A stretch of 64,000 nucleotides of DNA from Paramecium tetraurelia (taxonomy: Eukaryota > Ciliophora > Oligohymenophorea > Peniculida > Parameciidae), in the NCBI RefSeq assembly GCF_000165425.1, contig NW_001799089.1, forward strand, positions 417,770-481,769. Direction: 5' to 3'. Below the pieces are notes generated by a model. The model saw only the letters and a program-made list of their open reading frames with translations, was not told the origin of the DNA and made no database searches. Below are positions 1 to 57,086 of the stretch, in pieces. A program made the position numbers and the translations under genes. Every line of letters begins with the position of its first letter. Position 1 is the first letter of the stretch.

Positions 1-1807
1 GCAAAAGGGCCACATCTCTTCATGGAACATCACCCATCAATTAATTTCCACAGGAAATAAATACAACTCAATAAATATAGCCAACTCCCCCAGTGTAAAT
101 TCCATCAAAACTGAATTCCAATAACTTTCCTATCTTAGAAAATACTAGTTAAATGTCAACACCTTAATATTTGCCTTTCATTACAAAACTTTTGAAGAGC
201 AAAAGAATAGTCACATAGAGTTGAACAAAGCTAAATGACTTTTATAAATCTTAAATTATATAATTAACGAAGATTAGATTTTGGAATTAATTAGTAAATA
301 TAAAAAATTCTTATTAAAATTTATTTTTATGGTATACAAAATTCAAAAACAGAAATTATTTAAATAAAACTTGATGCCATTTTGAATTTAAATCAATTCC
401 AATAATCTGAGTATGTTCTCATAAAACTTTTAACATTAATAAGGAGAAATGTAAATTAAGAATTATATAACTGTATGTGTTCTAAAATTCTAATTGATTT
501 CTGATAAGTGCCCTTCTAGTTCTTCAAAATATTAATGGAATATCATAATATATTAATATTTCATCGTTGTTCACATTATATATAATTATTTTGTTTTAGA
601 TAAAATATATCATTAAATCTGAAAATATAGGGAATTAATATAATTTATATTTTGTTGATTATGAGAATTTTAGAATGTTAATTAAAATAATTTGACAAGC
701 GTTGATTAAAACACTTTTTGGTTATAGAGAACAAAACTAAATTACTGTCGATAAGGTAATTGATAATATATAATAAATTTAGGATTAACTATGATAGGTA
801 AAGAATCGTTGAATATATTCATTAAGTAATTAAATATATATATATTTATTAATATCATATAATATGATTAATGATTTGGATATCAACTTTTGCCCACTTT
901 CTCCTTTAGAATTTCATACAAATTAACAGCAGATAATTTCTGAATAATTCTTAGAATATGAGAATCGTTCTAAAAAATGTAGAGTTAGTTCCTAATGTTT
1001 ACTAATAAAAAAGTACTATTTTTAGATCATTATAGAAAAATTAGACAAAAGAAATCTAGACCATCTGTCCTTCGAATAGAAGAAGTAGTTAGAAATGTGA
1101 AGTTGTACAATACTTGTTCGAGCCAACAGAATCTAGAGAATCTGGAAATTATTTAAAATAAACCTCTTGTGAAATCTAGTTGAAAAGATTTAGCTGACTT
1201 GATTTATATTAATACATACTTGTAAAAGTTTGAACTATATAAAGTTTTCATTTTCTCAAATTTCCATATCAAGAAATATAAAAATGGTGGATCAGATTTT
1301 TTAACATACCTTAATTATAGTATGTTTAACCTCCAACTACTTTATGATGGTTTCCCTTCTCGGTAAACATTCAATCCAATGAGTATAAACAAATTAATAT
1401 TAAATTCATACTCGATAAAACTATTATGTGACTCTTGTCAATACATTAAAGATGATCAGGACCTTCAATTTAATGAAGTTTTTTCTTCATTTTTAAGGAG
1501 ACTTTGAGAATATTTACATAATCAACCCAATTAATTTAACGATTCCACAATTGAGATGCATCAAATACTAACCAAATGAAGAAATGATAATTTTGTTTCT
1601 GTAATTAATTATATCTTAGACTTAAATTATATTATGTGAATTATATGAGATGAATATGTTTTTTAGTTGTGAAACAAATAGGAAGAATAAATTGATAAAG
1701 AAATGGCTAAATTATCTAGATTGTGTCTATGTAAAAGGAGAATTACTGAATTTAGTGAAAGTTTTACTTTTAAAAGCAATTTTTATTATATAACATATTT
1801 ATATATT
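1..1807. other. gene-poor left edge
   Basis: AT-rich sequence with frequent TGA in all frames when read with the ciliate code. I could not assemble a convincing open frame or join short open pieces through small introns. A neighbouring gene may end in the first two hundred bases, which are slightly richer in GC, but I cannot show it. No telomeric CCCCAA/CCCAAA repeat is present at the window edge. Confidence 0.5.
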
Positions 1808-43121: not shown

Positions 43122-44573
43122 TCAAATGGCTTAAATGTTTCTCAAAGATTCCATTTGAGAGGCTTAAGGTTGTTGTTGTAGTGTCTCATTTATAAGTGGT
43201 CCCAGATGGATTCTTATCTCGTCAGTCCTACTGCTCCATTAAAGCATGTCAGAATCTTTCTTAATGCAGCCTTAATATTTAAGCATGGATTCTTAATCGA
43301 ACAAACTTCTGCAATTAGGACAGCTCTGGTGATAAGTGGTATCACATTACTTTATGTACGTTCATCCATTTATCAAAACAAGTTGTATGGAAGATATGAT
43401 TGCAAAAGGTGACTCTTACAAGTGAATCATCATAAAAAGGATCAAGACAAATCAGGCACTGATTATATGTTGCAAATCTATCGCATCTAACTCTAAGTAT
43501 TCCATATTCTTGAGATGGAAAGAGTATCTCTGTTAATGATGGCAATTGCTTTAGATCATATTTTATTTCCACTTTCTTTTTTGCTTTTTATTTGGGATAA
43601 CATTTCGATTTCATAAGACAAAATATAAAACATAAAGCAAATGAGGACAGAGTAGTAGATAGAATAATAGTTAGAAGGTAATCATCAGAAACTGAATTAG
43701 AACTCTCCAGATAAATAAGATAATTTGAATCAAAGTACACTAGATAATAAAAGTTGATCGTGGAATTTGATTATTCCTTTAAATCTATTACATCGTTATA
43801 GCACTCCTTGACTTGATCTAATGATATATGTAATGTGGTTGTAGTTTATTTTGAGATTTAATTAAGATTGAAATTTTAAGTGATGCAAAATCCATAGAAT
43901 GAAGTCGAATTTTAAAATTGTAATTAAACTTCTTCTTTCTCGTAAAAAAACTACTCAATATCAATGTAATAAATCTTTCCACCTTAAAAAATCTACTATT
44001 ATGTGAGATCATCAATGATTAGATTACAATCTTAACCAATTTATGCAATATTACAATTACAATAACGAGATTAACATTCAGTGTCATGTTGACAATCCCT
44101 TTTATATCGTTAATAAATACAATATGCATTGATTGGAATTTATTTATTATATTCTTACTAAAATATCGGCTTCATAATCTGATTGAAACCCAATGTAGGA
44201 AGATTCATCATATTAATAGATTTGATAGTAATTTGATATTAATAAGTTGATTGATTATTTCTGCAGGATTAAATACTACGTTTATTTCATTTGATAGGAA
44301 AACCAATTCACAATGCATCTAATTAAATAGTAATACTCACTTTTCTTCAGAGAGTAGTTGCATAAAGTTGGATTAGGTCGGCTTTATGATGCAAATAAAT
44401 AGAAAAGGTCCTACTTTTTTTGGATCTGTAAATTGGGATTCCAACGTTATTTTTATTTAATTATTGTTTAAATTGAAGGGCATTGTGATAAAGTTAATTC
44501 CTTTGAATTCATTTTGTTAGATAATGGGCCATGTACTGACATATTCTAATAAAAGGTATAAACATAATATCAT
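43122..44573 (-). CDS. secretory type I membrane protein with EGF-like region and RING-H2 finger
   Basis: Introns of 22, 22 and 25 nt leave 1383 nt, 460 residues. The chain has a signal peptide (MILCLYLLLEYVSTWP), a lumenal region and a compact Cys cluster near residue 145 (CILDCQHDTECQSRYCNCN, then GQDC) resembling an EGF-like module. A single membrane helix follows (YLLTIILSTTLSSFALCFIF) with a basic stop-transfer region. The cytoplasmic RING-H2 is CLICLDPF, CNHIFHTTC, then CPNC across the 25-nt intron, so C3H2C3 ligands are present. Membrane RING-H2 proteins such as PA-TM-RING ligases work as E3s in the endosomal system; here an EGF-like cluster stands where a PA domain usually lies. Ligase activity is inferred. 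Confidence 0.82.
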
Positions 44574-45836: not shown

Positions 45837-48438
45837 ATGATAGTCAGAAGAGATCGCATTCATCATCAAGGCAAAACTAATCGAGACTTCAAGTACACTG
45901 TTTCATTTCATTCAAGGATGTAGGATTCATTGAAAAATACTTCACATAATCAAAATAGTTCTTTGGATGGAGATAGAATCGCTACATTATCTATTCCGAA
46001 AAATAAGAAGTTCTCTGAAATCTTAGACCAAAAATCTAAAAGAATTGTACAATGCAAAGATCCAGTTGATGAAACTAAAACATCTGCCAAAAAATTTTAC
46101 TAACATCATTTGATCGGCTACCCAAGGTATTCTTCGTTGTGCAAATTAGATCCTCCAATTTAGAAGAGAAGGAATTGATGAAACGAGTGTTTTGTGGTGA
46201 TTCTAATACACTCTTCTTTGATGAGGAACACAGACAAAGTTAAGAAGGTCCAATTCATACTAAATGTATAATCTACAATACTAATTTATTAGAGGAGTAA
46301 AAGGAGAAATTGGCTTAACAGAAAAGAGAGGAGAACACCACAGGAATTCAAGAAACCTAATTAGTGGGTTTGGAAAATAAGAATACACTTGAAGGCAAAG
46401 TAGATCTAGAAAAAGTTAGAGATATCAGAAGAGCTATAAGAAGAAGATATGCCAATAGAAAAAACTTCTAAAAGATCTTCAATTTGTGGGATGAAGATTC
46501 TAATGGTGCTGTTAGTGTTAAGAATCTATACAACATGATATAAAGATTAGGCATAAATATTAACATCGATGAGGCAAGAGTCCTATTGGCTAGTGCTGAT
46601 ATGGATGGTTCAAGTGATTTAGGATTAGATGAGTTTCTGGATCTCATTTTCAATGATAAGGATGCTCTTAATGTAAATTTAAAGGCATTGCCAGCATTAA
46701 CTGAGGATGAAAAGGATTCCTTAGTCAAAAACTAGGAGACCATTGATTATCTCAGAAAGGATGCTATGCAGGCTAGAGATAGAAGACATTAAAATCAAGT
46801 CAATCTCATTCTTAAAAACAGAGTATTTTATCTCACTATAATTTAAGTTATAATAATTGGGACAATAACTAACTATGTAGGATGAGTTGTAGAAAGGATA
46901 CATAAGTTATGGAAGATTTGAAAGAGTCATTAAGAAATTAGAAATAGATCCCAGTATATTATCTGAATAGGATCTCAAAATCCTGTATGAGAATTTTAAA
47001 AACCAAGATGACACCTTTGATTATAAAAAGTTCTTAAATCATTTGAAATCATTCTAATTGAAGGAAGAAGTTTACGACGATCCGTATCTAAACAAAAACC
47101 AAGAACCAGTAGATAAAAAGTAGTTGTTACTAAAAAGTATGAAATATTAAGAGGATCAACTCATTACACTATTTGACATCACAAGATTAGATGCCTACTC
47201 TTTGGAGAAGATGAAGAAGAAGACTAAGACCCTTGTGAATAAGATTTAGAGATATATCCCATCGCAAACTAAATTTGAAGAATTTCTAAAAGGTAAAATC
47301 TAAGGGAATAATGTGAATGTGAAGGAGTTCTCTCATGTGATCGTGCAATTCTTGGAAAGTGTTAATGAAAGATACTAAAAGTTCGATCTTGAAAGCATGC
47401 TCAGTGTATTGCAATTTGGCCAATATGAAACATAAAAAGCTGACGAAATTGTTAGGATATTGTTTAAGTATTTGATAGATCCATTTAATTTAGTGAAACT
47501 GACTAGGAATTTTATGATAGAGCTTAATTGAGATAAAAGGGACCAGCTCCTCCTGAAAAGGTATCCAAAGTTGACTAACCACTTCAAGCTATCGAAAATA
47601 AGGAATAAGATATTGAAAAATAAATCTGTATGAATCTATTAATACTCCAATAGAGTTTTATAATTAGGAAGCAGGAATGACGTGGTACCTACCTAACCAA
47701 ACTAAAGAATTATCAGATGTATTGATGAAAGTTGAGAACTCTCTGTTTAACAAATCCGAAAGAGCCTATAAACTATTTAAAGATTTTGACAAAGATAAGG
47801 ATGGATACATCTCGCAGTAGGATATGAAATAGAAATTCGAGGAGATGAATATACTCAATGGACAGGAAATCGGAATATTAATTAATTATGTTGATCCGAC
47901 TAACAAAGGATATGCAACCTTCAATGAATTTCATGAGAAACTCAGAGCTGGAATGACCATCTTCGATACTGCAGGGAATCAGTTGATTTCAATTAATAGT
48001 TAACCTGGAAAGACTTTTTAAAGTGCAGCCAAAGCCTTCTTACCTGAATTGTCAAGATTAACTGAAGAATTCAAAAAACCTTTTAGACCCCAAACAAATC
48101 ATACCGATATCAGGCCTTCCACTAGGTTTGGAGCCACTCCTGCTTTCAAAAACACGTTTTAAAACTTTGTTCCTCCGAAGACTTCTCCTATGTTCATGAC
48201 TCAGGGGGAGAGATTCTCAAAAAACAGGGAATAATTCATTTAGGATGAGAAAAGTCAGAACAACCAAAAATACGAAAGCAAACTTAATAGAATACGACAA
48301 TATCATCAATCTATAGAATAAAGAATTTAATCTGCATAAGAGTAAAGGGATTAGAAGGATGCAAGCAATTTAAAATCAAAATAAATGGCACAATGGACAT
48401 ATGAACATAAAGCCCATCTTAAAAATGATTATTTATGA
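45837..48438 (+). CDS. large EF-hand protein, possibly axonemal
   Basis: Introns of 23, 25, 26 and 26 nt leave 2502 nt, 833 residues. A basic disordered N-terminus is followed near residue 200 by a helical lead (IRRAIRRRYANRKNF). EF-hands then occur in pairs: DEDSNGAVSVKN and DMDGSSDLGLDE around residues 215-265, and DKDKDGYISQQD and DPTNKGYATFNE around 615-665. The first loop of each pair keeps the acidic ligands. The C-terminal 160 residues are Pro/Thr/Phe-rich, then a charged helix. The architecture resembles EFCAB-type flagellar proteins, but I see no diagnostic match. The start is the first Met after the remnant and could lie further upstream. Confidence 0.75.
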
Positions 48439-48456
48439 TTAAATATATATTTATAA

Positions 48457-49053
48457 ATGGGATCATCTTGTGCTAAATTTGTGTGTTAAGACCATGTGGA
48501 TTCTGATCTAATGAGTTTAGAATCCAAAATGAAAACATTGAATGAAATGAGTAGAAGTACTAAATTTTCTTCTCTGAAATTGAGTATTACCTACACCGTC
48601 CCTGTAAATTAGAAGGCTTCGGAAACGGAAATACAGGATCAAGATCGCCCTATTCACAAAATCAATAAAAGCAAGGGGAGAATGAAAAACTTCAATTTTC
48701 AGGAAGATCATCAACAATAATTTTGGCTTTCTCAAGTTTCTAGGATTACTGAAAGTCCAGTGAGTGTGAAAAGTGAAACCAGAAGAATCAAAAAGAAAAA
48801 TAACCCTAAGCGAGATCTTATTTAGATTTAAAATTTAGATTTATCATTTTATATTCAGAGAATAAGTTACTAATTAGAGAATAGAGAAGTGCAATCTCAG
48901 AGAAGTATCCTTAGGTCCCCCTTGAATAAAAGTTTAAACTCTCTCTCAGAACACAAGAAAGTACATTTTGCTTAGGGCACAAAGTTTAGGTCCAATAAAT
49001 CTTCGCCCTCTAAAAGAACTTAACTTAAGCAACATAGAGGAAGTTTAATTTGA
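48457..49053 (+). CDS. MGSSC small basic protein with RVxF motif (tandem copy 1)
   Basis: Intronless, 198 residues. The N-terminus MGSSC fits N-myristoylation at Gly2 with palmitoylation at Cys5. The rest is basic, Ser/Lys/Arg-rich and predicted disordered. Near residue 169 is KKVHFAQGTKFRSNK: KVHF fits the RVxF docking motif for protein phosphatase 1. RSILRSPLNKSLNSLSEH precedes it. The next gene has the same layout and a matching SIL...RFARGTIFR block, so the two are tandem paralogues. The gene starts 18 bp after the EF-hand gene's stop. A lipid-anchored phosphatase regulator is the natural reading but remains inference. Confidence 0.7.
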
Positions 49054-49111
49054 TTGTCTTCTGAGTTTGTATTAGCAATATTTTTATATTATATTTTTAC
49101 CATATTCTTAA

Positions 49112-49828
49112 ATGGGATCATGTCAAATCTAAAGAGTAGAATCCGAATCTAATTCCTGTAAAGAGTCTTCTTCAAAGTGCCAATATTCCAAATCATCAGT
49201 TATCATGAATCAAATTGTCTAACCTACTAATGCTGAAAATAAGCTTGAATTAGACCAAATAATTGAAGACGAAGAAAACTTGCTTACTGTACAAACCAGA
49301 ATCAAAAAGAACAAGAGATTCTACAATTTTCAAGAAGAAGAATCCCTCAGAAAAATATCCAATAGAGATGAAGTTGAATCCCTCAAAATAGGAGCAAAAC
49401 AAAAACGACGCCTATTTAGGACCAGTGTAACACACAGTCATTTTGATGAAATTAAACAACATTCACCACCTCTCAATCAATCTTTATAAACAGAAAAGGA
49501 AGATGATGCGAAATCTGTGAAAAGCATATTAAAAAAAAATAGCAAATTAAAAGATAGTCTAAGTGGCTCACCAGAAACTAGATCTGTTCGCTTTGCAAGA
49601 GGCACCATCTTTAGAACCAAAAGCCAACGTTCCATTCGCCAATCCAAAAATAAAAAGCCTAATCGGCCTGACTCTAGACAAAATGAATCTATCAACTCTT
49701 TTGAAAATAAAAGTCCGAATTGGAAAAGACACAGGGAACAATAAAGAGTTTAAATTACCAATGTTCCGGTTCTTTTTTCAATGAATCAAAATATAGGAGT
49801 TAAAACTAAACTTTTCTCCTACTATTGA
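49112..49828 (+). CDS. MGSC small basic protein with RVxF motif (tandem copy 2)
   Basis: Intronless, 238 residues. It starts MGSCQIQR, again a myristoylation/palmitoylation-type N-terminus, and stays basic and low-complexity throughout. Near residue 159 the block RSVRFARGTIFRTK parallels KVHFAQGTKFRSNK of the preceding gene, with SILKKNSKLKDSLSGS before it matching SILRSPLNKSLNSLSE. Outside this block and the N-terminus the two have diverged strongly. The tail ends VKTKLFSYY. The 58-bp spacing and same orientation point to local duplication. No annotated family recognised. Confidence 0.7.

Positions 49829-55446: not shown

Positions 55447-57086
<1,640 letters not shown>

Follow-up and report, generated by a model that had tools for sequence, protein, structure and literature searches.

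A tandem pair of small basic proteins in Paramecium tetraurelia with paired SILK and RVxF motifs and lipid-anchor-type N-termini: candidate membrane-held PP1 targeting proteins

Regulators of the phosphatase PP1 in which a SILK-type motif and an RVxF motif are used jointly include inhibitor-2, inhibitor-3 (I3) and KNL1 (PMC10066265, PMC9582199), and it is this pair of motifs that we find in two neighbouring genes of Paramecium tetraurelia. In the passages of the sources drawn on here the SILK consensus is given as (G/S)IL(K/R), with its Lys sitting among Glu54, Glu56, Asp166 and Glu167 of PP1, and the motif is described as once thought always to lie N-terminal to RVxF, an exception being PTG, where SALK follows RVxF (PMC9582199). 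Two further comparisons concern membranes. LAP1B is a membrane-borne PP1 regulator with an REVRF sequence close to the RSVRF of our gene 2, but is anchored by a transmembrane segment and not by an N-terminal acyl group (PMC3792071), whilst the kinetoplastid PPEF phosphatases carry N-terminal myristate and palmitate and are localised to the endocytic system (PMC1885993), the acylated protein there being the catalytic protein itself rather than a separate docking protein as proposed here. TIMAP (PPP1R16B) is a membrane-associated PP1 regulator that works in the way we propose for the present proteins. Its anchor is a C-terminal prenyl group, as opposed to the N-terminal acyl group proposed here, and the likeness drawn here between TIMAP or LAP1B and the present proteins is one of mode of working.

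The window, i.e. the whole 64,000-nucleotide stretch of the P. tetraurelia genome that was analysed, has its genes kept open when TAA and TAG are read as Gln. Within it, gene 1 and gene 2 are intact, each as a single open frame in the ciliate code (table 6), and are arranged head to tail with a gap of 58 bases (Table 1). Both frames are open at exactly the coordinates assigned to them in the original prediction, which was made from the letters and open reading frames of the window and described small basic proteins with MGSSC or MGSC starts; this description holds, the products of 198 and 238 residues having pI values of 10.2 and 9.9 respectively, with a net charge of about +15 to +18, and being hydrophilic and rich in Ser. 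The pair is flanked by an EF-hand gene upstream and a GH63 glucosidase gene downstream. The EF-hand gene (46569-48438) adjoins gene 1, apparently comprises at least two exons, and is conserved in location at a second region of the genome, C108 (91% identity over 47677-48435). Further downstream, a protein kinase gene begins with MGLCSSK (S6), by eye a classic myristoyl/palmitoyl-type start; kinase motifs, also recognised by eye, are found in the window at 55447-55701, where the gene starts, and in the following frame, into which it runs on.

Table 1. Positions, in window coordinates, of the two genes and of their conserved and predicted functional elements.
Feature	Positions	Strand	Basis
Gene 1 (198-aa basic protein)	48457..49053	+	open frame, relatives, purifying selection
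MGSSC start, gene 1 (MGSAC, MGSMC in two relatives)	48457..48471	+	five-protein alignment
FQE core of second common block, gene 1, residues 81-83	48697..48705	+	alignment
SILK-type PP1-docking motif, gene 1: SILR (SILK in both relatives)	48904..48915	+	alignment, motif match
RVxF-type PP1-docking motif, gene 1: KKVHF, residues 167-171	48955..48969	+	alignment, motif match
AQGTKFR tail of common block, gene 1	48970..48990	+	alignment, DNA pattern search
Gene 2 (238-aa basic protein)	49112..49828	+	open frame, relatives, purifying selection
MGSC start, gene 2 (MGSCQIQ in both copies; Ile at 6)	49112..49123	+	alignment
FQE core of second common block, gene 2, residues 73-75	49328..49336	+	alignment
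SILK motif, gene 2, residues 138-141	49523..49534	+	alignment, motif match
RVxF-type motif, gene 2: RSVRF, residues 157-161	49580..49594	+	alignment, motif match
ARGTIFR tail of common block, gene 2	49595..49615	+	alignment, DNA pattern search

Relatives were sought within the P. tetraurelia genome (69 Mb, 231 contigs), using the full-length proteins and, for the wider family, the block alone as queries. Gene 1 is present at three places, C121 (the window), C108 and C2, the latter two proteins being 80% and 61% identical to that of the window, and the gene 1 block used alone returned the same three places. Gene 2 is present at two, C121 and C108 (75% identity), giving a family of five proteins: the tandem pair, two relatives of gene 1 and one of gene 2. 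C108 carries both genes in the order seen in the window and behind the same upstream neighbour (91% identity). In the C2 copy of the region gene 2 was not found by tblastn (best E 2.4), so that it has probably been lost there. An open frame downstream is common to C108 and C2 (76% identity), and a RING-type gene lies ahead of gene 1 both at C2 and in the window (37% identity between them).

The original prediction had noted a block shared by the tandem proteins, KVHFAQGTKFR and VRFARGTIFR, each preceded by SIL, and had suspected a PP1-docking motif. Block and SIL are present as described, with SIL beginning at residue 150 in gene 1 and residue 138 in gene 2, but SIL proves to be part of a complete SILK motif, which reads SILR in gene 1 of the window and SILK in every other family member, and it is this second PP1 motif that makes the observation more telling than was first appreciated. 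In all five proteins a (G/S)IL(K/R) sequence lies N-terminal to RVxF, and in all five the RVxF motif (KKVHF or RSVRF) fits both of the stricter consensus forms given in PMC3792071. SILK is separated from the V of RVxF by 15 residues in gene 1 and by 17 in gene 2, compared, by the same count, with 9 between the SILK-type motif (27-31) of I3 and the V of its KVEW (40-43), a distance at which both pockets are reached (PMC10066265). MGSxC or MGSC, FQE, SIL[KR], RVxF and AxGTxF are kept by the whole family, the residues invariant in 5/5 being M1, G2, S3, the N-terminal Cys, FQE, S-I-L and V-x-F-A-x-G-T-x-F; within the block, the positions invariant across the tandem pair are S, I and L, the Ser residues around SILK, and V, F, A, G, T and F. 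No variation is seen at the Ser of SILK itself or at Ser residues that closely follow it (in gene 1, S154 and S159). The accompanying statement that the proteins have diverged elsewhere is correct in that gene 1 and gene 2 are 27% identical overall, but overlooks a second short block, [NS]FQE[DE], common to all five. As to the docking motif, the evidence from motifs (SILK plus strict RVxF in 5/5, and PP1-like genes in the same genome, see below) is stronger than had been claimed, PP1 binding being a prediction.

Motifs as short as these arise by chance: an RVxF-type motif alone occurs in 27% and 32% of shuffled versions of the two proteins. For either protein, 0.126% of 100,000 shuffled versions contain the ordered combination, SILK followed by RVxF 5-40 residues later, which is also present in 3 of the 327 open reading frames of the window (stop-to-stop, at least 100 aa), namely gene 1, gene 2 and one RING-type frame. 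The last (43137-43872, minus strand) has a GILR...RVTF pair, and it is its 37% identical relative that precedes gene 1 at C2. Searched as a DNA pattern, VxFAxGTxF gave seven matches in the 69 Mb genome compared with none for the reversed control, and five of the seven are the family described here. Both remaining matches were judged to be due to chance: the one at C64:16222 lies on the same strand as a 1008-aa open frame but in another reading frame, and the one at C80:283218 (VYFASGTKF) is antisense to a 270-aa frame with a DHHC-type cysteine motif, recognised by eye. A small doubt attaches to the second verdict because the frame of the match itself is likewise uninterrupted, over 230 codons; a query made from it returned six further weak matches, two with in-frame TGA. 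On these judgements, VxFAxGTxF is confined to the family in this genome.

These figures bear on the possibility that the block is not a PP1 dock, but a basic segment in contact with membrane, tubulin or nucleic acid that matches both motifs by accident. Such a reading would suit the high net charge and the fact that conservation in gene 1 extends well beyond the block, for example to TLNEM, SITYT and IQNLDLSFY; against it, the invariant positions of the block are the motif residues and Ser, not basic residues in general, and the ordered pair is rare in shuffles. We regard it as improbable, and proceed with the two motifs as a putative PP1 dock.

Potential partners are available. STPPase_N gave at least 12 matches at E up to 1e-5, a lower bound from 27 candidates scored. 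All 12 PP1-like genes found keep the E54/E56, D242/L243, Y255/F257/R261 and L289/F293 segments, and D166/E167/I169 was recognised in eight by a first pattern and in the remaining four by a looser one. Pocket positions were assigned by motif in human numbering, from residue lists in the relevant passages of PMC10066265 and PMC9582199, the checked set excluding Met283. By this assignment, P. tetraurelia has PP1-like enzymes in which both docking pockets are intact at the residues checked.

Both genes are under purifying selection and behave as real genes: dN/dS between C121 and C108 is 0.13 for gene 1 and 0.21 for gene 2, and comparison of the two other gene 1 copies with that at C2 gave 0.12 and 0.09, at dS values (2.27 and 2.86) close to saturation. 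When the gene 2 pair is divided into 30-codon windows, pN is lowest, at 0.04 (pS 0.45), over residues 151-180, which hold RVxF, and is 0.08 in the preceding window, which holds SILK. For gene 1, pN over 151-180 is 0.06 between C121 and C108, where window 121-150 is lower at 0.04; it is the lowest value, 0.11, between C108 and C2; and it is 0.18 between C121 and C2, where it is not the lowest (0.17 at 31-60). Accordingly, the block ranks with the more strongly constrained segments of the proteins, of which it is not the only one.

The two genes may also share an origin. BLASTP between the gene 1 and gene 2 proteins aligns the block (16/38 identical, E=2e-4, in a single comparison), and profiles made from the two alignments match collinearly over a stretch that begins at NFQE and ends beyond the block (E 2.8e-4, probability 41%). 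These results lend modest support to common descent, which is strengthened by the tandem position and by the identical order of landmarks. Since gene 1 and gene 2 are only 27% identical, compared with 61% for gene 1 between C121 and C2, the tandem duplication probably predates the split of the C121, C108 and C2 regions.

The lipid-anchor-type N-terminus of the original prediction is plausible but uneven. No Cys other than the N-terminal one is aligned across the five proteins, and NMT (PF01233) is above cut-off at four places in the genome. Judged by the broad NMT pattern, in which an MG start is followed by S/T/A/G/C/N at position 6 and Pro is absent from position 7, the three gene 1 proteins (A6, K7) fit, although they do not fit MGXXXS/T, whereas the two gene 2 proteins (MGSCQIQ, I6) fit neither; acylation is accordingly given here as predicted. 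MGXXXS/T is described in PMC4736023 as the usual form for myristoylation, Ser6 being neither sufficient nor critical: sperm hexokinase HK1S (MGQxCQ), which has the Gly2 and Cys5 spacing of gene 1, is both myristoylated and palmitoylated without Ser6. HK1S is otherwise an unrelated protein, and the analogy covers the N-terminus only. The fit to the broad pattern and the precedent of HK1S make it likely that the gene 1 protein is acylated.

Starts of this kind are recurrent in the genome and not peculiar to the pair, since the pattern ATGGGNTCNTGY gave 126 matches genome-wide, about four times more than its reversed control (32). One hundred of the 126 MGSC starts were examined, of which 34 were gene-like, i.e. 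had an open frame with AT-rich sequence upstream, a definition that misses intron-split starts. S/T/A/G/C/N at position 6 without Pro at 7 was found in 19 of these 34 and in 14 of 60 others (66 less six frames that were too short; Fisher p=0.003, falling to 0.001 when the two gene 2 copies are removed, with duplicates kept so that entries are not fully independent). Ile6 occurs in three of the 34, two of which are the gene 2 copies themselves. A few of the starts examined continue, by eye, with a MORN-like YPDGGVY-type sequence. The set as a whole suggests a sizeable number of N-terminally acylated proteins in P. tetraurelia.

It follows from the difference at position 6 that only gene 1 might be lipid-anchored, gene 2 being a soluble or palmitate-only paralogue, so that the two proteins would act in two different places. 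Ile6 in both gene 2 copies, and its scarcity among gene-like starts, more than half of which fit the pattern, speak for such a division. Conversely, the two gene 2 copies agree throughout MGSCQIQ but mostly diverge over residues 8-32, and the dispensability of Ser6 in HK1S (PMC4736023) weakens an argument made from position 6. We consider this arrangement possible but doubtful, and continue with both proteins as candidates for acylation.

Searches for known families and folds gave little. No Pfam family was listed for gene 1 (E up to 10, with most matches above about 0.1 filtered out), and none was above cut-off for gene 2, whose only match was a methyltransferase at E 0.048, below cut-off; one match of gene 1 to solved structures was at chance level (E 1.2) and there was none for gene 2. 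Structure models, built from alignments of three and two close sequences, have mean pLDDT of 47.2 (gene 1) and 48.1 (gene 2) and pTM of 0.18 and 0.15, with some low-confidence helix. The proteins are probably mostly disordered, although model confidence this low is weak evidence for disorder because the alignments are so shallow.

These searches also speak to what the proteins might do with PP1. Rather than targeting subunits they could be inhibitors or tethered substrates, a reading encouraged by inhibitor-2 and inhibitor-3, which likewise pair a SILK-type motif with RVxF (PMC10066265), and by the abundance of Ser and basic residues. No Pfam model of either inhibitor was listed for gene 1 or gene 2, however, at E up to 10 and with filters that drop most matches above about 0.1, and the CCC that follows RVxF in I3 is absent from all five proteins, which have at most one Cys there; an N-terminal anchor, moreover, would suit targeting better. 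We therefore think inhibition or tethered-substrate behaviour unlikely, and a targeting role is favoured because no known inhibitory element (I3-type CCC, Pfam inhibitor model) was seen. Other described regulators differ in further ways. KNL1 is a large kinetochore scaffold with further parts beyond its PP1 dock; identity with KNL1, considered on account of the SILK and RVxF dock, was dismissed solely because the present proteins are so small (198 and 238 aa). Large kinetochore or carbohydrate-binding parts are absent from gene 1 and gene 2. To our knowledge, none of inhibitor-2, inhibitor-3, KNL1 and PTG begins with MGSxC or MGSC.

Taken with a likely lipid-anchor start, a two-part docking site suggests that the proteins probably bring PP1 to a membrane. 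The reading that we prefer, and hold to be reasonably probable on the sequence evidence, is that an old tandem duplication gave rise to the two genes and that they belong to a small family encoding PP1 targeting proteins, which dock at two sites and are held at the membrane by N-terminal acylation. In the proposed mechanism SIL[KR] would enter the SILK pocket and [KR]xVxF the RVxF groove of one PP1 catalytic subunit simultaneously, both of these surface sites lying away from the active centre. The AxGTxF segment would probably run further along the RVxF groove. Gly2 and the nearby Cys of MGSxC or MGSC would probably carry myristate and palmitate respectively, and the acylated N-terminus would hold the complex at the membrane, such that PP1 acts on local substrates. 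Two precedents count against this reading: SILK is present but unused in human LAP1B, where it is located C-terminal to the RVxF that is used (PMC3792071), and in I3 a non-canonical SILK adds almost nothing to affinity when other motifs are present (PMC10066265).

By analogy, binding may be regulated. Phosphorylation in the SSILK region of KNL1 impairs PP1 binding (PMC9582199), and because of this precedent a phosphorylation switch at the invariant Ser in or after SILK is possible, if speculative, in the present proteins. Delivery of myristoylated cargo by UNC119 and Arl3 is described elsewhere (PMC6678300); a ciliary or cortical membrane as the compartment would be a guess made from the organism. 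A more ambitious proposal joins these elements into a family peculiar to ciliates, whose members would be dual-acylated PP1 targeting proteins made almost entirely of short linear motifs, with tandem members placing PP1 at separate membranes (ciliary membrane or cortex) and with the invariant Ser of SILK and the Ser residues that closely follow it as the phosphorylation switch for release of the phosphatase; in this full form we would rate it a long shot.

Among the titles and abstract openings listed from the open-licence literature there was no ciliate PP1 regulator of this form, and nothing on membrane targeting of PP1 by such proteins in ciliates. What came up for PP1 and RVxF in Paramecium concerned mammalian ependymal cells, and for myristoylated PP1 regulatory subunits with RVxF it was a fungal review and a preprint on molecular mimicry; in PMC4588039, the material retrieved on PP1 in Paramecium consists of a mammalian passage and reference-list entries only. 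Gene 1 and gene 2 would join a large known class of PP1 regulators. If the preferred reading is correct, they would be a compact, naturally occurring case in which docking of PP1 at two sites is combined with membrane placement, in a small regulator made of motifs only, bearing an N-terminal acyl anchor and easily tested by point changes, and the SILK-plus-RVxF design would be present in a lineage only distantly related to animals and fungi.
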